Made by a program: the position numbers and the translations under genes. Below the pieces are notes generated by a model, which saw nothing but the letters and a program-made list of their open reading frames with translations, searched no databases and had not been told where the DNA came from. From Chloroflexota bacterium (GTDB taxonomy: Bacteria; Chloroflexota; Anaerolineae; Anaerolineales; DRMV01), in NCBI GenBank assembly GCA_011322445.1, contig DRMV01000042.1, positions 1 to 45,162 of the forward strand: a DNA stretch of 45,162 bases. Direction: 5' to 3'. Positions 18,378 through 42,435 of the stretch are shown here, piece after piece. Positions within the stretch are counted from its first letter, which is position 1. Each line of letters starts with the position of its first letter.

Positions 18378-18450
18378 GCACGTGATGCCCTGATGCCCGG
18401 TGTGGTGGTGCCGCGCGATGAGAAAAATTGCGAATTATGAATTCGAATTG

Positions 18451-18498
18451 CGAAACGACGAAACGACCAGACGACGAAACGACCACACGACTAAACGA
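18451..18498. repeat. 8-nt tandem repeat array (six units)
   Basis: Six consecutive octamers, CGAAACGA, CGAAACGA, CCAGACGA, CGAAACGA, CCACACGA and CTAAACGA, with a constant ACGA end. The array stops 10 bp before the TATAAT of the isopentenyl phosphate kinase gene. It is related to the octamer arrays at 20000-20122 and 34434-34473. Confidence 0.85.
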
Positions 18499-18508
18499 CG
18501 CGCCGCGG

Positions 18509-18514
18509 TATAAT
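18509..18514 (+). promoter_or_regulatory. -10 box of isopentenyl phosphate kinase gene, probably leaderless
   Basis: TATAAT is followed by 6 nt and the ATG at 18521, with no ribosome binding site in between. The -35 region falls inside the octamer array. Confidence 0.55.
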
Positions 18515-18520
18515 GCCCGC

Positions 18521-19315
18521 ATGGTCTTCCTCAAACTTGGCGGCTCGCTGATTACCGACAAGCACCGCCCCTACACCCCCCTGCCCGGCCGTCTGGCCGC
18601 TTTGGCCGGGGCGCTGGCTGCAGCCCGCCGTGCCCGCCCCGACCTGCGGGTGCTGGTGGGGCACGGCTCTGGCTCTTTTGGGCATTGGGCTGCCAAACAG
18701 GGCGGCGACATCCGCCACGGTGTGCGCCAGCCGGAAGACTGGCAGCATTTCGTGCGGGTGTGGCATGCCGCGCAGCGCCTCAACCGGCTGGTGGTCGATG
18801 CGTTGCTGGAAGCCGGTGTGCCCGCGGTGGCTTTCCCACCCTCGGCGGTGGCATTGGCCGAAGATGGCATCCTGCACCGCTGGGATACCGCGCCGCTGGA
18901 AGCCGCACTGGCCGCGGGACTGGTGCCGGTGACCTATGGCGATGTGGTCTTCGACGCGCGGCGCGGCGGCGTCATCGTTTCCACCGAAGAGATTTTTGCC
19001 TTCCTCGCTCCGCGTTTGCGCCCCCAGCGCATTTTGATTGCGGGGGTGGAACCCGGCGTGTGGGCTGATTTCCCGCAATGCACCCGCATCGTGCCGGAAA
19101 TCACCCCCGCGAACGCGCCTGCGCTCGCCGCAGCGCTGGGCGGCTCCGCAGCGGCGGATGTGACCGGCGGCATGGCTTCTAAAGTCGAAACCATGCTTGC
19201 TCTTGCTGCGGCTTCTCCTGACGTGGAAGTGCTGATTTTCGACGGGCGCCGCGGCGAGGATGTGCAGGCAGCGCTGTTGGGCGAGCCCCGGGGCACGCGG
19301 GTGGTGGCACAATGA
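18521..19315 (+). CDS. Isopentenyl phosphate kinase
   Basis: Amino-acid-kinase-fold protein of 264 residues. It phosphorylates isopentenyl phosphate to IPP, the last step of the alternative mevalonate pathway. It begins MVFLKLGGSLITDK (ATP loop). It has the IPK signature GHGSGSFGHW, whose His55 corresponds to the substrate-binding His that separates IPK from other kinases of the fold. VTGGMASKVE lies near the C-terminus. IPK is mainly archaeal but known in Roseiflexus. The ATG at 18521 follows TATAAT at 6 nt; a longer frame from 18428 runs through the octamer array. Its stop overlaps the next start (ATGA). Confidence 0.87.
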   Translation: MVFLKLGGSLITDKHRPYTPLPGRLAALAGALAAARRARPDLRVLVGHGSGSFGHWAAKQGGDIRHGVRQPEDWQHFVRVWHAAQRLNRLVVDALLEAGVPAVAFPPSAVALAEDGILHRWDTAPLEAALAAGLVPVTYGDVVFDARRGGVIVSTEEIFAFLAPRLRPQRILIAGVEPGVWADFPQCTRIVPEITPANAPALAAALGGSAAADVTGGMASKVETMLALAAASPDVEVLIFDGRRGEDVQAALLGEPRGTRVVAQ

Positions 19316-19998
19316 CGGCGTGGGAAATTCCGGTGTTATTTGCCGATGACTACCTGCTGGTGGTGGCGAAGCCCGCGGGCTTGCTCACGGTGCCCGACGG
19401 CTGGCAGCCCGATTTGCCCCATTTGGCCGCGTTGTTGGCGCCGCAGTGGGGGCGTTTGTGGGTGGTGCATCGGCTGGATAGGGAAACCAGCGGCGTGATG
19501 GTGCTGGCGCGCACCGCGGGAGCCCACCGCGCCCTCAACGCTCAGTTTGCGCAGCGGGAAATCCGCAAAACTTACCACGCGATTGTGTTTGGTGAACCAG
19601 TGTGGCGGCAACGCACGGTCAGCCTGCGTCTGACGCCCAACCGTGGCCGCCGTAAGCGCACCGTGGTGGATGCTCGCGGCAAGCCAGCCCGCACCGAGGT
19701 GCGGGTGTTGCAGCGGTTCGGCGCTTTCAGCCTGCTGGAAGCCGCGCCGCACACCGGAAGGCGGCATCAGGTACGGGTGCATTTGTTTGCGTTGGGGTTC
19801 CCCATTGTGAACGACCCGCTTTACGGCGACGCGACGGATGACCACCCTTTGCCCATTCAGCGGCTGGCATTGCACGCCCGGCGGCTGACTTTTCAGCATC
19901 CTGCTACGGGGGAAACGATGGGCTTTACGGCGCTCCACCCGCCCGATTTTGCCGCCGCGCTGGAAAACCTCGCGGCGTATGGGAATCTGTATGAATAG
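19312..19998 (+). CDS. RluA family RNA pseudouridine synthase
   Basis: Protein of 228 residues that converts uridine to pseudouridine in rRNA or tRNA. The catalytic motif is HRLDRETSGVMVLART, with the RluA-type HRLDxxTSG Asp; FADDYLLVVAKPAGLLTVPD and HTGRRHQVRVHLFALGFPI are also family blocks. There is no S4 domain, so it is a short RluA/RluC-type enzyme (TruC/YqcB length). The ATG overlaps the preceding stop codon, so the pair is translationally coupled. The target site is unknown. Confidence 0.9.
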   Translation: MTAWEIPVLFADDYLLVVAKPAGLLTVPDGWQPDLPHLAALLAPQWGRLWVVHRLDRETSGVMVLARTAGAHRALNAQFAQREIRKTYHAIVFGEPVWRQRTVSLRLTPNRGRRKRTVVDARGKPARTEVRVLQRFGAFSLLEAAPHTGRRHQVRVHLFALGFPIVNDPLYGDATDDHPLPIQRLALHARRLTFQHPATGETMGFTALHPPDFAAALENLAAYGNLYE

Positions 19999-19999
19999 T

Positions 20000-20122
20000 C
20001 GCGTCGTCGGATAGTCGGATGGTCGCTTGGTCGGTGGTTAATCGTTTCGTCGGGTAGCCGTGCAAGTTGCCCGACTACCCGACGATATGACTATCTGACT
20101 ATTTGACTACCCGACCACGCGA
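20000..20122. repeat. Inverted pair of 8-nt repeat arrays between convergent genes
   Basis: The left half repeats octamers of TAGTCGGA type and the right half the inverse type (GACTACCC, GACGATAT, GACTATCT, GACTATTT, GACTACCC, GACCACGC, GACTACCC). At the centre CGTCGGGTAG (20048-20057) and CTACCCGACG (20075-20084) form a perfect 10-bp stem with a 17-nt loop. It fills the entire gap between the RluA-type gene and rpoD, so it may serve as a bidirectional terminator. Confidence 0.8.
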
Positions 20123-21328
20123 CTACCCTAAATATTCCCGCAACTGACGGCGGATGTTGGGGTGGCGCAGGCGGCTGAGCGCCTGGGCTTCGATCTGGCG
20201 GACGCGTTCCCGCGTGACGCCCATTTTGCGCCCCACTTCTTCCAGCGTGTAGGCCTGCCCGTCGAGCAGGCCGTAGCGCAGTTGCAGAATGCGCACTTCG
20301 CGCGGCGGCAGCGAGTCGAGGATGCTTTCCAGATGTTCCCGTAGCAGATTACGGGTGGCCGCTTCGTCGGGCGCGGGGGAGTCTTTGTCTTCGATGAAGT
20401 CGCCCAGCACCGAATCTTCTTCGTCGTCGGTGGGCATTTCCAGGGAAAGCGGCCTGCGGGCAACCTTGAGCATGTATTCCACTTTTTTGGGCGGCACGCC
20501 GAGTTCCTCGGCCAGTTCGTTGATGTTGGGGTTGCGCCCCAGTTTTTGGGTCAGGTGGTGCTGCACCCGCAACAGTTTGTTGATTTGGTCGCCCATGTGC
20601 ACCGGCACGCGGATGGTGCGCCCCTGGTCGGCGATGGCGCGGGTGACGGCCTGGCGAATCCACCAGGTGGCGTAGGTGCTGAATTTGTGGCCGCGGCGGT
20701 AGTCGAATTTCTTGATGGCGCGAATCAGGCCGATGTTGCCTTCCTGAATCAGGTCGAGGAAGGGCACGCCGCGCCCCATGTATTTTTTCGCCACGCTGAT
20801 GACCAGGCGAGAATTGGCGGTGATGAGGTGCTCGCGCGCCCGCCAGCCATCCTCAATCAGGCGGCGGAGTTCCTGGCGGCGTTCCGGGTCGTCCACGCCC
20901 AGCGCCAGTTCCTCGCGCGCTGCCCGGCCAGCCTCAATGCGCTTGGCAAGGTCTACTTCCTCTTCCGCTGTCAGCAGCGGGATGCGCCCCACCTCTTTCA
21001 GGTAGAGGCCGATCATGTCGTCCGTATCGATGTTGGCCAGGTAATCTTCCTCGTCGATCTGCGGCGTCGCGTCTTCTTCTTCCTCTTCGGCCTCGAGTTC
21101 TTCGTCGGTGGGGTTTTCGACGATTTCGTCTTCAATGTAAGGAATGCCCGCACTTAGCAGGGCGGCGAAGGCTTCTTCCAATTGGTCAACGTTTTGTTCG
21201 GCTTCAGGGAAAAACTGCAGAATGTCGTCTAAAGTTACAAAGCCTTTTTGCCGCCCCAGGTCAACCAGGTGGGCAATGGGGGAGTATTCCTCTTCGATTT
21301 CGGTCAGTAACAGTTCTTCTTCAATCAT
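20123..21328 (-). CDS. rpoD: Primary RNA polymerase sigma factor RpoD/SigA
   Basis: Housekeeping sigma factor of about 401 residues. It has a region 1.1-like N-terminus ([20 protein letters not shown]), an acidic stretch ([15 protein letters not shown]), region 1.2 ([20 protein letters not shown]), region 2 ([20 protein letters not shown] and [20 protein letters not shown], which melts and reads the -10), region 3, and region 4 with [20 protein letters not shown]. The start at 21328 is supported by an upstream GGAGAG; ATG 21346 is possible. The promoter carries a palindrome over its -10. Confidence 0.95.
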
Positions 21329-33154: not shown

Positions 33155-34438
33155 GTGCCAACCATTCATTGCCTGGGCCTCAACCATCGCACCGCCGACT
33201 TGGGTTTGCGCGAGCAGGTGGCGTTTTCGGAAGAAGACATTCGCGCCGCGCTGGCGCGGCTGGGGTGTGGAAAGAACGGCAGCCGCCCGGCGGGTGTTTC
33301 GGAAATGGTCATTCTTTCGACCTGCAACCGCACGGAAATTTACGCGGTTGCCCCCACTGAGGATTTCCAGACGCTGGAATCATTTCTGGCTGATGCCCGG
33401 CAGGTTGCCCCCGAGATTTTGCATCCTCATCTTTACCGCTACCGCGATGCTGACGCGGTAGCGCATCTTTTTCGTGTAGCCAGCGGGCTGGATTCTTTGG
33501 TGTTGGGCGAGCCCCAGATTCTGGGGCAAGTCACCCGCGCGTGGGAACTCGCCCGCGGGCAAGGCACCGTGCGCGCCGTGTTGGGACGGCTGTTCCAGGC
33601 CGCAGTGCATACGGGCAAGCGGGCGCGCACCGAAACGGCCATTAGCCATAATCCGGCTTCGGTTGCAACGATGGCGGTGCATTTGGCCGCCCAAACGGTG
33701 AAAGACTTTGATACCGCGCGGGTGTTGGTGTTGGGAGCGGGGGAAATGGCCGAGCAGGCGGTGGAAGCGTTGCGGGTGCGGGGTGTTTCCCATATTCGGG
33801 TAATGAACCGCACGCTGAGCAAAGCCGAGGCGCTCGCGGCGCGATGGGGAGGCGAGGCAACAACCTTTGAGGCGTTGTTGCCTTCCCTCGCCTGGGCAGA
33901 TATTGTGCTGACTTCTACGGGCGCACCGCATACCTTGATTGATGCTCGACACGTGCAAGAGGCGTTGGACGCACGCGCCGGTCGTCCTTTGGTGTTGCTG
34001 GATATTGCCGTACCTCGCGATGTAGAGCCCGCTGTGGGGGAGATGGCGGGGGTGCAGCTTTACGACCTGGATGCTTTGCAAGACCATTTGGAAGACGCAC
34101 TGGCATCCCGGCGGGCTGCTGTGCCGCAAGTGGAAGCGATTGTTGAAGAGGAAGTTGCTGCTTTCGTGGGCTACCTCCAGACCCTGGAAGTCGTGCCGAT
34201 TATTCGGGCACTGCGCACCCAGGCCGAAATGGTGCGCCAGGCCGAACTGGAGAAAACTCTGCGCAAGATGCCCCACCTCACGGAAGAGGAACGGGCGCGT
34301 TTGGAGGCTTTGACGAAAGCCATCGTGAACAAATTGTTGCATTCCCCCACGGTGGCGCTCAAAGAGGCCGCCCAGGGCCATCGCGCCGCGGAAACCGCCG
34401 CGGTCGCCCGTCGCCTTTTCGGTATTTCCACCAACTGA
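33155..34438 (+). CDS. hemA: Glutamyl-tRNA reductase
   Basis: Protein of 427 residues; first committed step of C5-pathway tetrapyrrole synthesis (glutamyl-tRNA to glutamate-1-semialdehyde, NADPH). The catalytic Cys is Cys57 in STCNRTEIYA; GLDSLVLGEPQILGQV and the NADPH-fold stretch VLVLGAGEMAEQAVEALR are intact. The start is GTG 33155, with GAGG 6 nt upstream; a TTG start at 33125 lacks this. First gene of the hem cluster; hemL, the next enzyme, is the last gene of it. Confidence 0.96.
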   Translation: MPTIHCLGLNHRTADLGLREQVAFSEEDIRAALARLGCGKNGSRPAGVSEMVILSTCNRTEIYAVAPTEDFQTLESFLADARQVAPEILHPHLYRYRDADAVAHLFRVASGLDSLVLGEPQILGQVTRAWELARGQGTVRAVLGRLFQAAVHTGKRARTETAISHNPASVATMAVHLAAQTVKDFDTARVLVLGAGEMAEQAVEALRVRGVSHIRVMNRTLSKAEALAARWGGEATTFEALLPSLAWADIVLTSTGAPHTLIDARHVQEALDARAGRPLVLLDIAVPRDVEPAVGEMAGVQLYDLDALQDHLEDALASRRAAVPQVEAIVEEEVAAFVGYLQTLEVVPIIRALRTQAEMVRQAELEKTLRKMPHLTEEERARLEALTKAIVNKLLHSPTVALKEAAQGHRAAETAAVARRLFGISTN

Positions 34439-34473
34439 CCAACGGCTCGCTGACCACCCGACTATGCGACTTA
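34434..34473 (+). repeat. 8-nt-phased repeat across the hemA/hemC junction
   Basis: CTGACCA occurs at 34434 and 34450, and CGACT at 34459 and 34467, so the octamer phase continues through the hemC start codon. The units resemble those at 20000-20122. No ribosome binding site for hemC is visible in this stretch. Confidence 0.55.
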
Positions 34474-35366
34474 TTTTTGCTACCCGCCCCTCAGCCCTGG
34501 CCCGCTGGCAGACCCAGTGGGTGATTCGGGCTTTAGAAGCAGTGCATCCTGGCTTGACCTGCCAGGAAGAGGTCATCGTGACCCACGGCGACCGTGTGCT
34601 TGACAAACCCCTGCCGGAGATCGGCGGCAAGGGGTTGTTCACACAGGAACTTGAAGCCGCCCTGCTCAATGGCCGTGTGGATGCCGCGGTGCATTCCCTC
34701 AAGGATTTGCCCACCGAAATGCCGCTTGGTCTGACCGTAGGCGCGATCCCGCAGCGTGCGGAAGTGCGCGACGCGCTGGTGTCCGCTCAGGGCTACACCC
34801 TGGAAACCCTGCCCCAGGCCGCGGTGGTGGGCACTTCAAGCCTGCGGCGGGCTGCACAACTGCTGGCTGTGCGCCCCGACCTGCAGATTCGCCCCCTGCG
34901 CGGCAATGTGGATACTCGTGTGCGCAAGGCTATGGAAGGCCAATACGACGCGGTGGTGCTGGCTGGGGCTGGGCTGACACGCCTGGGCCTGACAGAGCAC
35001 GTCAGCCAGTGGCTTCCTTTGGAAGTGATGCTGCCCGCGCCCGGGCAGGGCGCGCTGGCGGTGCAGTGTCGGGATGACGATGCCGAAACGCTGCGCCTTT
35101 TGACCGCGATAGAACATCCTGCCACCCGCGCCGCGGTGGATGCTGAGCGTGCGTTTCTGGAAGCCCTCGGCGGTGGCTGCGCGGTGCCTGTCGCGGCTTA
35201 TGCAGAAGCCTTGCCGCAGGGCGCGCTGCGTTTGACCGGCTTTGTAGGCGCACCCGATGGCAGTGGCCATTGGCGGGGTAGCCTTACGGGCGAGTCTGCC
35301 CGTGCCCTGGGGCAAGCCTTGGCCCAAAAGGCCATTGCCGAAGGCGCGCGGCGGTGGTTGAAGTGA
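34464..35366 (+). CDS. hemC: Hydroxymethylbilane synthase (porphobilinogen deaminase)
   Basis: Protein of 300 residues that joins four porphobilinogen units. It has HSLKDLPTEMP, GTSSLRRAAQLL, LRGNVDTRVRK and the cofactor-binding Cys239 in EALGGGCAVPVAAYA. It starts 25 nt after hemA. There is no Shine-Dalgarno sequence, and the octamer repeat runs into the first codons (MRLIF). A minus-strand gene pair follows immediately. Confidence 0.96.
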   Translation: MRLIFATRPSALARWQTQWVIRALEAVHPGLTCQEEVIVTHGDRVLDKPLPEIGGKGLFTQELEAALLNGRVDAAVHSLKDLPTEMPLGLTVGAIPQRAEVRDALVSAQGYTLETLPQAAVVGTSSLRRAAQLLAVRPDLQIRPLRGNVDTRVRKAMEGQYDAVVLAGAGLTRLGLTEHVSQWLPLEVMLPAPGQGALAVQCRDDDAETLRLLTAIEHPATRAAVDAERAFLEALGGGCAVPVAAYAEALPQGALRLTGFVGAPDGSGHWRGSLTGESARALGQALAQKAIAEGARRWLK

Positions 35367-35905: not shown

Positions 35906-36697
35906 GTGACTTCTATTATACGCCAAAACGCCCCCACTGTCCTCATCACCCGCCCGGCGCACCAGGCCGGGCCTCTGGCCGCGCTGCTGGAAGCCCGCGG
36001 CTTTCGGCCTGTGCGCTTCCCTGCCATTGCCATTCGTGCCATAACGCCTAATCCGGCTTTGGATGCGGCGCTTCGCCACGTGGACGAATATGCTTGGATG
36101 GTGCTGACCAGCGTCAATGGCGTGCGCATTGTGTGGGAGCGCGCAGAAGCCTTGGGGCTTGCAAAGGCGTTGCAAAAGGCGCGCGTGGCCGCGATTGGGC
36201 CTAAAACTGCCCGGGCTTTGCGCCAGCGGGGCATCACGCCCGCTTTTGTGCCCCAGGAATATGTGGCCGAGGCCATTTTGCCGGGCTTGGGCGATGTGCG
36301 CGGCCAAAAAGTGTTGCTCTTGCGGGCCTTGCAAGCCCGCCCAACCCTGGCAGAAATGATTGCCGCCGCGGGCGGCGAGGCTCATGAGGTGCCGGTTTAC
36401 GACACGCTGCCCGCGCAGCCTTCCCTTGAAGGCCTGGAAGCCTTGCGCCGTGGGGTGGATTATTTGACCTTCACCAGCCCTTCCACCGTGCGCAACTTCG
36501 TTGCCCTGACGCGGCAGGCCGGACTGGACCCGCTGGCCCTGCCTGGCAACCCGCAGGTGGTGTGCATTGGCCCGATTACCGCCCAGGCCGCCAGGGAAAT
36601 GGGCTTCCCCGTGGCCGCCGTAGCAGACCCTTACACTGCCGAAGGTTTGGTTGAGGCCATCGTCCGTCTATCCCGACACCTGACACCTGACACCTGA
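35906..36697 (+). CDS. hemD: Uroporphyrinogen-III synthase
   Basis: Protein of 263 residues that closes and inverts ring D of hydroxymethylbilane. Sequence conservation in HemD is low; the call rests on VLITRPAHQAGPLAALLEAR, WMVLTSVNGVRIVWE, VAAIGPKTARAL, DYLTFTSPSTVRNF, CIGPITAQAARE and the position between hemC and hemB. GTG 35906 with GAGG upstream is preferred over ATG 35858. Its last codons and stop are made of a 7-nt repeat array (HLTPDT), so the C-terminus may vary between strains. Confidence 0.92.
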   Translation: MTSIIRQNAPTVLITRPAHQAGPLAALLEARGFRPVRFPAIAIRAITPNPALDAALRHVDEYAWMVLTSVNGVRIVWERAEALGLAKALQKARVAAIGPKTARALRQRGITPAFVPQEYVAEAILPGLGDVRGQKVLLLRALQARPTLAEMIAAAGGEAHEVPVYDTLPAQPSLEGLEALRRGVDYLTFTSPSTVRNFVALTRQAGLDPLALPGNPQVVCIGPITAQAAREMGFPVAAVADPYTAEGLVEAIVRLSRHLTPDT

Positions 36698-36702
36698 CAC
36701 CT
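36675..36702 (+). repeat. 7-nt tandem repeat GACACCT x4 at the end of hemD
   Basis: Four perfect heptamers. The array encodes the end of HemD, supplies its TGA stop and ends just before the hemB ribosome binding site. Adding or losing a unit would shift the hemD stop. Confidence 0.95.
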
Positions 36703-40822: not shown

Positions 40823-40831
40823 ACACCCTTT

Positions 40832-40880
40832 GCATCCTGCATCCTGCATCCTGCATCCTGCACCCTGCACCCTGCAACCT
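40832..40880 (+). repeat. 7-nt tandem repeat array between hemE and hemY (seven units)
   Basis: GCATCCT x4, GCACCCT x2, GCAACCT x1, in exact phase. It fills most of the 72-bp spacer, ending 14 nt before the hemY ATG. The unit pattern GCANCCT is close to that of the array before hemL. Confidence 0.95.
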
Positions 40881-40894
40881 GATCAAAGGCAACC

Positions 40895-42386: not shown

Positions 42387-42435
42387 GCAACTTGCATCTT
42401 GCATCTTGCAACTTGCAACTTGCATCTTGCAAGCA
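42387..42435 (+). repeat. 7-nt tandem repeat array between hemY and hemL
   Basis: Six heptamers of GCAACTT or GCATCTT (42387-42428) plus a decayed seventh (GCAAGCA). It ends about 20 nt before the hemL ribosome binding site. A frame through it gives repetitive Cys/Leu/His peptide (residues of an upstream extension), so it is non-coding. Confidence 0.95.

Follow-up and report, generated by a model that had tools for sequence, protein, structure and literature searches.

Tandem heptanucleotides of Calothrix are repeats of the STRR type, that is, short-unit tandem arrays. They are mentioned in Rehm et al. 2015 (PMC4692102), which describes dispersed, mostly intergenic arrays of G-rich heptamers, GGGAATC in Xanthomonas and GGGGA(C/T)T in Nostoc. 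According to the parts of that study dealing with position, the G-rich strand lies near an ORF, either upstream in antisense or downstream in sense, and the study depicts an inverted pair whose G-rich strands converge. In two xanthomonads the arrays lie mostly between the same genes and vary in length and sequence. The Xanthomonas and Nostoc units carry G-tracts, quadruplexes were shown in vitro, and the intergenic arrays are about equally sense and antisense (PMC4692102). The TAACTGA repeats of marine Beggiatoaceae are mostly intergenic and run forward toward start codons, the largest class ending 1 nt before the start (MacGregor 2015, PMC4679880). Summing the columns of the published table gives 147 of 170 repeats forward toward starts and 12 of 170 toward stops, and some overlap the preceding ORF at its end. 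The sets comprise two to six copies of a 7-nt unit, mostly one exact heptamer, and, where that paper treats folding, neither orientation has a predicted structure. Scattered (GATAGRA)n satellites are described for Chloroflexus aurantiacus (PMC6749651). No published octamer arrays were found in the open-access literature for the bacterial group considered here.

The window (the whole 45,162-nt stretch of Chloroflexota DNA that was analyzed) contains arrays of a degenerate octamer at the three sites where an earlier note on this DNA had placed them: ahead of the promoter -10 box of an isopentenyl phosphate kinase (IPK) gene, in the gap between an RluA-family gene and rpoD, and over the start of hemC. 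Family models identify the neighboring genes as RluA subfamily (TIGR00005), a sigma factor with sigma-70 regions 1.1 to 4, MurJ and hemC (TIGR00212), and the IPK gene matches NF040647 at 141 bits (cut-off 120). Through the RluA protein, Anaerolineales and Chloroflexota MAGs come out as the three closest named relatives. A known RNA family was considered and dropped, as the window has no Rfam match at gathering thresholds. The coordinates are collected in Table 1.

Table 1 Repeat arrays and associated elements of the window
Feature	Position	Strand	Basis or remark
AATTGCG-type heptamer run	18426..18454	+	Tandem Repeats Finder, sequence; directly beside octamer array
Octamer array, six CGAC cores, divergent murJ/IPK gap	18456..18499	+	sequence; upstream of IPK -10 box
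TATAAT -10 box of IPK	18509..18514	+	sequence
Left arm, inverted octamer pair	19994..20033	-	sequence
Hairpin core, 77 bp	20033..20109	.	75/77 identical in sister species G003
Left half, perfect 11-bp central stem	20047..20057	+	sequence
Right arm, inverted octamer pair	20072..20127	+	sequence
Right half, perfect 11-bp central stem	20075..20085	+	sequence
Decayed three-unit octamer array over hemC start	34451..34474	+	sequence; hemC by TIGR00212
CAHYYTG array	40826..40881	+	fills gap between two co-directional genes
CAHYYTG array	42388..42429	+	between two co-directional genes

A profile built from 200 units picked by YGAC gave the consensus YGACYAHN. The near invariance of GAC in this profile is a consequence of how the units were picked, whereas 91% of the units have T or C at position 5 and 88% have A at position 6. 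Across the 2.63-Mb genome to which the window belongs (the home genome, G000), a pattern of three CGAC cores (CGACNANN repeated) had 50 matches versus 0 for the reversed control, and a four-core YGACN4 pattern had 137 versus 1. A scan with the unit profile at a threshold of 15 found six arrays in 185 kb versus 0.2 expected under a first-order Markov model. The window accounts for four of these arrays; of seven further 20-kb stretches, one has the other two arrays and six have none. At least 46 octamer arrays were resolved in the home genome, and they are dispersed and mostly intergenic (42 of 46). The earlier note had regarded the octamers as members of a wider family, and the genome-wide counts bear this out, since further arrays do exist.

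The arrays have a direction, a regularity that the earlier note does not mention. Genes were called with a purpose-written hexamer gene finder and the distances of the array ends to the flanking genes were measured, an end being scored as abutting when it fell -30 to +15 nt from a start or stop. The gene starts are predicted and may be wrong by several codons or more (the finder misplaced the IPK start), and the counts omit the four of 46 arrays that the finder placed within genes (window 18456, window 34451, L051 9901 and L056 2575). Among the 42 intergenic arrays, the 3' end of the YGAC strand abuts a start in 21 and a stop in 12, whereas the 5' end abuts a start in none and a stop in 10; seven arrays adjoin no gene edge at either end. 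The 3' end is the one closer to a gene in 32 of 42 arrays (p=0.0009), and among the 31 arrays whose two ends differ by over 15 bp in this distance it is the closer one in 27 (p=3.4e-5). Arrays in co-directional gaps are sense in 26 cases and antisense in 9 (p=0.006), and all 15 octamer inverted pairs found with members within 120 bp of one another, which represent about nine distinct loci by shared flanks, are in the order minus then plus (head-to-head). Start-anchored arrays reach a Shine-Dalgarno-like motif or the start codon itself, and in many of them the first base is at, or falls within, the stop codon of the gene upstream. Stop-anchored arrays overlap the gene end by 5, 13 or 29 nt in 10 of 12 cases, which fits a stop codon that is the in-frame TAG of GGTAGTCG units.

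Sister genomes follow the same rule, the 3' end being closer in 12 of 15 arrays of G003 and 14 of 16 of G004. The polarity is not seen in G002 (5 of 9, a small number) and is not significant in the distant genomes, where 15 intergenic arrays were sampled from G236, G204, G138, G118 and G062 and the numbers are again small (G236 4/8, G204 1/2, G138 1/2 and G062 0/1). Exceptions outside the home genome, with the 5' end at a predicted start, are G004 L059 (where the predicted start is doubtful), G002 L090 and G138 L195. In the home genome, G003 and G004, then, the neighboring gene edge lies in the 5'-to-3' direction of the YGAC strand and inverted pairs are head-to-head, and on the arrays sampled the rule is shown for only part of the genus. 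G-quadruplex formation as the cause of the polarity is unsupported here, as arrays poor in CCC, or G3 on the complementary strand (CCC at fewer than half of the unit junctions, 32 of 42 arrays), still follow the rule in 24 of 32 cases.

This geometry can be set beside the published systems. As with the heptamers of Rehm et al. (PMC4692102), the G-rich strand of the octamers starts at an ORF edge, a likeness shown for the home genome, G003 and G004. Unlike those heptamers as described there, the octamers have a period of 8, coexist with a separate heptamer family, do not carry G-tracts throughout (the 32 of 42 CCC-poor arrays noted above) and are mostly sense rather than about equally sense and antisense. 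The likeness to the TAACTGA repeats (PMC4679880) lies in the 21 of 42 arrays that abut a start in forward orientation, with none in reverse; unlike the TAACTGA repeats in the account given of them, the octamer units are degenerate, are also found antisense at stops and recur as head-to-head pairs. The Calothrix repeats mentioned in PMC4692102 are heptamers and share with the octamers the trait of being short-unit tandem arrays, and the Chloroflexus (GATAGRA)n satellites (PMC6749651) come from the same phylum and are also scattered short units, the unit being a heptamer of another sequence. The octamers differ from published polar arrays in unit length, in degeneracy and in having no obligatory G-tracts, and otherwise look like arrays of a similar kind. 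On this resemblance and these differences we class them as a variant of the known polar arrays.

RNA folding predictions suggest a consequence of the orientation. Folds of the region from -45 to +30 around the predicted starts gave -6.7 kcal/mol in 25 array genes versus -16.4 in 56 gap-matched genes (p=1e-7), and flipping the array leaders gave -20.7 versus -6.7 kcal/mol as oriented (p=3e-7). At the other gene edge, the 12 stop-anchored arrays gave -0.155 kcal/mol per nt as read from the ending gene versus -0.045 when flipped (p=0.001). The orientation of the octamers is thus predicted to leave leaders open and trailers structured, an effect that follows from composition. The array genes start with ATG in 24 of 25 cases versus 116 of 156 controls (p=0.018). 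Shine-Dalgarno-like motifs were about as common as in controls (11 of 25 array genes versus 29 of 56); a role of the arrays as a Shine-Dalgarno replacement is therefore unsupported, and no special role in initiation is shown.

The reading that we favor, with a probability of about 0.5, is of polar intergenic short-tandem-repeat arrays in which slippage or unequal exchange would add and remove whole units within spacers, while selection at the RNA level would settle the orientation retained at each place. Ahead of a start codon, an mRNA carrying the G-poor strand would keep the region of initiation unfolded. Past a stop codon, an mRNA carrying the G-rich strand would have a structured trailer together with in-frame TAG stops, and a head-to-head pair would form a long hairpin. 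Folding cannot be the universal cause of such polarity, because the Beggiatoaceae TAACTGA unit is reported to be structureless in both orientations and yet points to starts.

The earlier note had also remarked on the coexistence of repeat families of period 7 and period 8, and a heptamer family, CAHYYTG, does accompany the octamers, with 117 three-unit matches in the home genome versus 0 in the control. Elsewhere in the genus this pattern had 20 matches in G003, 11 in G004, 1 in G001 and none in G002 or G005. The 17 CAHYYTG arrays in the fetched stretches of the home genome were measured in the same terms. The 3' end is closer to a gene in 9 of 11 decidable arrays (p=0.065), nine of the 17 end at a stop and three at a start, and seven are sense and ten antisense in co-directional gaps. 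Six inverted heptamer pairs were seen by eye among the matches listed (C6, C22 and C43 of the home genome and C73, C165 and C222 of G003), all in the order minus then plus. The heptamers share the octamer geometry, so defined, but sit mostly behind stop codons. In 2 of 17 arrays the 5' end lies 12-13 nt from a start with the G-rich side reading into it. Placement of the G-rich side within 15 nt of a start is not predicted by selection on RNA structure, which is weakened to that extent, and together with the sense/antisense lean these arrays speak partly against the RNA explanation. A further heptamer array, of GACACCT units, overlaps a gene end at window 36675-36702.

The RluA/rpoD gap holds the inverted pair of the window. 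The stop codon of the RluA-family gene (TAG, 19996-19998) lies inside a unit of the left-arm array and that of rpoD (CTA on the plus strand, 20123-20125) is supplied by the last right-arm unit, so that, from one stop codon to the other, the pair occupies the whole gap, as the earlier note had described. In G002 and G004, rpoD has a glycine codon and then TGA where the home-genome rpoD ends on the array TAG. A perfect central stem of 10 bp had been reported; the stem is indeed perfect and its length is 11 bp. The predicted folding energy of the gap is -63 to -74 kcal/mol, varying with the strand and the ends taken, and a 146-nt segment gave -74 kcal/mol on either strand, with a z score of about -9 and none of 200 shuffled sequences equally stable. 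The gap thus has, in its predicted fold, one feature of an intrinsic terminator, a stable G+C-rich hairpin after a stop codon. No U-tract follows the hairpin, which leaves intrinsic termination at the gap unproven, and a terminator scan lists no site in 19990-20140.

The hairpin core is much more similar between the home genome and G003 than its surroundings, since its identity (Table 1) compares with 279/474 at 4-fold sites of the RluA/rpoD locus (p=3e-15) and 82% over the whole locus (p=5e-5). G000 and G003 each have a single copy of the central 40 bp, and the four other genus members have none when up to three mismatches are allowed; a REP/BIME-like or mobile hairpin element was rejected on the grounds of this single copy per genome. 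The earlier note had pointed to comparison with close relatives. Made with an RluA query that is blind to arrays, this comparison finds the inverted pair kept in G003 and different, ordinary hairpins in G002 and G004, the G001 gap being unreadable because of a contig end. The G002 hairpin is terminator-like by the scan and has a U-tract (L061 1444-1467); in the G004 gap the scan passes over the long hairpin and lists a smaller site (L059 1201-1214). The proposal that the inverted pair is a terminator therefore stands in part: the long predicted hairpin, its conserved core and the sister hairpins agree with it and the missing U-tract does not. A terminator function between RluA and rpoD is plausible. 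Most likely the gap hairpin stands in for the ordinary hairpin terminator of the sister species and separates the converging transcripts, acting by structure and not as a classical intrinsic terminator.

At the IPK promoter, the six units that the earlier note had placed just before the -10 box proved to be six CGAC cores at period 8 that stop 9 nt short of TATAAT. The IPK ATG is at 18521 and the gene looks leaderless, judged from the position of the -10 box relative to this codon; a sigma-70 scan listed no full promoter in the stretch. The TATAAT box is read in the home genome, G001, G002, G003 and G004. The array has the same place and orientation in G003, has the opposite orientation in G004 and is absent from G001 and G002, and upstream of the -10 box it is probably a dispensable spacer. 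Note that window 18521-19315 encodes a bacterial isopentenyl phosphate kinase scoring above the cut-off of NF040647 (IPPK_Arch) beside an RluA-family gene and rpoD. A different arrangement is seen at L037 2957-3004 (G000 C43:52656-52703), where the array follows a TATAAT box, precedes the start codon and would thus form nearly the whole 5' leader of the mRNA. Over the hemC start, the decayed octamers reported at 34434-34473 resolve into three units (Table 1), and the hemC ATG (34464) sits inside the array unit CGACTATG.

Five of the six genus members carry the three-core octamer pattern, with 21 matches in G003, 28 in G004, 34 in G002 and 3 in G001 beside those of the home genome. Neither the octamer nor the heptamer pattern matched in G005, a genome of the same genus estimated to be 100% complete. 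The three-core pattern was found in 2 of 12 other family members, and the four-core YGACN4 pattern in 98 of 249 class genomes, often with other unit types (TGACAGAA, TGACAAGG and TGACTCGC); the reversed controls of YGACN4 also match in many class genomes, so part of the 98 are other simple repeats. For this loose pattern a genus-restricted family is rejected by the 98 matching genomes. The class relatives G138, G118, G062, G166, G236 and G204 have octamer families of their own (TGACAGAA, TGACAAGG and YGACTAYC), some of them apparently in predicted coding sequence.

Between sisters, arrays in several gaps differ in length by 8, 16 or 56 bp, that is, by whole octamers, and unit-number variation between species is thereby observed; other differences, such as the 47 columns in L038, do not amount to whole units. 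Arrays are often retained in the orthologous gaps of G003, G004 and G002. Gene-anchored mapping into 371 kb of G003 placed 3 of 46 arrays, of which two were kept and one had decayed below threshold; the sister genomes are fragmented and the distant ones thinly sampled. Identity to G003 was 409/455 in arrays versus 2949/4076 at 4-fold sites and 2022/2646 in other intergenic columns. The corresponding values were 143/177, 1055/1832 and 441/691 for G002 and 188/244, 1179/1616 and 1223/1666 for G004, in which arrays are hardly above 4-fold sites. The GAC positions were identical in 165/171 (G003), 82/93 (G004) and 66/66 (G002). All of these array conservation figures are inflated, since most sister arrays were found via the CGAC pattern. 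The octamers are thus a genome-wide family with the unit YGACYAHN, whole-unit length differences between sisters and retention at a number of orthologous gaps. One array of the home genome, L055 2269-2308 (G000 C27:5768-5807), lies antisense and appears to have rewritten the last codons and the stop of its neighbor; in the G004 ortholog (in L107) the array is missing and the gene end is different.

Several other readings would account for the polarity. It is possible, if unlikely, that the octamers are neutral slippage tracts tolerated in spacers, the direction arising from start and stop codons recruited from the units (the ATG in CGACTATG and the TAG in GGTAGTCG) and from counter-selection of harmful orientations. 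Whole-unit indels between species, the stop-anchored overlaps expected from an in-frame array TAG, the IPK promoter array that is flipped or lost while TATAAT is kept and the lack of an octamer match in the essentially fully recovered G005 genome all fit such tracts. Neutral tracts agree less well with the conservation of the arrays and the gap hairpin, which exceeds that of 4-fold sites in G003 and G002 (figures biased by the arrays found through CGAC), or with the placement of start-facing arrays: of the 10 that leave over 100 bp between their 5' end and the next gene, eight end 0-32 nt from the start and the other two 40 and 84 nt from it. It seems improbable to us that the octamer rule and the similar rules published for the unrelated heptamers of Xanthomonas, Nostoc and Beggiatoaceae reflect a single general directional process in bacterial spacers, in which arrays grow in the direction of genes, replacing spacer as they go until coding sequence halts them and even rewriting stops, independently of unit sequence, unit length and G-quadruplex formation.

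The strand reading into genes is G-poor, weakly structured and rut-like, rut sites being G-poor, weakly structured RNA, and the polarity is present at starts and stops alike, as would be the case if the arrays were directional insulators at which polymerase entering a gene (sense at its start, antisense at its end) makes G-poor, C-rich RNA that recruits Rho and so ends stray transcription. We consider such insulators very unlikely, for most octamers in co-directional gaps are sense (26 of 35), where termination would silence the downstream gene, and units such as CGACTAAA lack pyrimidine-C pairs, which Rho prefers. That the arrays are sites at which a regulatory protein binds RNA or DNA (ribosomal protein S1, Csp, Csr or similar), an idea put forward for the TAACTGA repeats, is assigned a smaller chance still: arrays that are antisense at gene ends or upstream of an apparently leaderless promoter are hard to reconcile with such sites, whatever is made of their TAACTGA-like position ahead of start codons and of a GAC core more conserved than the other unit positions in G003 and G002 (a figure biased by array finding).

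Unrelated short repeats in several phyla have a similar geometry, and this points to a constraint or mechanism that the spacers between bacterial genes have in common. To judge from the octamers, it may require neither a unit of seven bases nor a G-tract in each unit, and they offer a simple case for asking whether the polarity rule is set by the folding of RNA at the two edges of genes, starts and ends. G005, which has neither octamers nor heptamers, is a natural comparison for what maintains the arrays. At the loci described here, the repeats supply stop and start codons to their neighbors and possibly replace a terminator.
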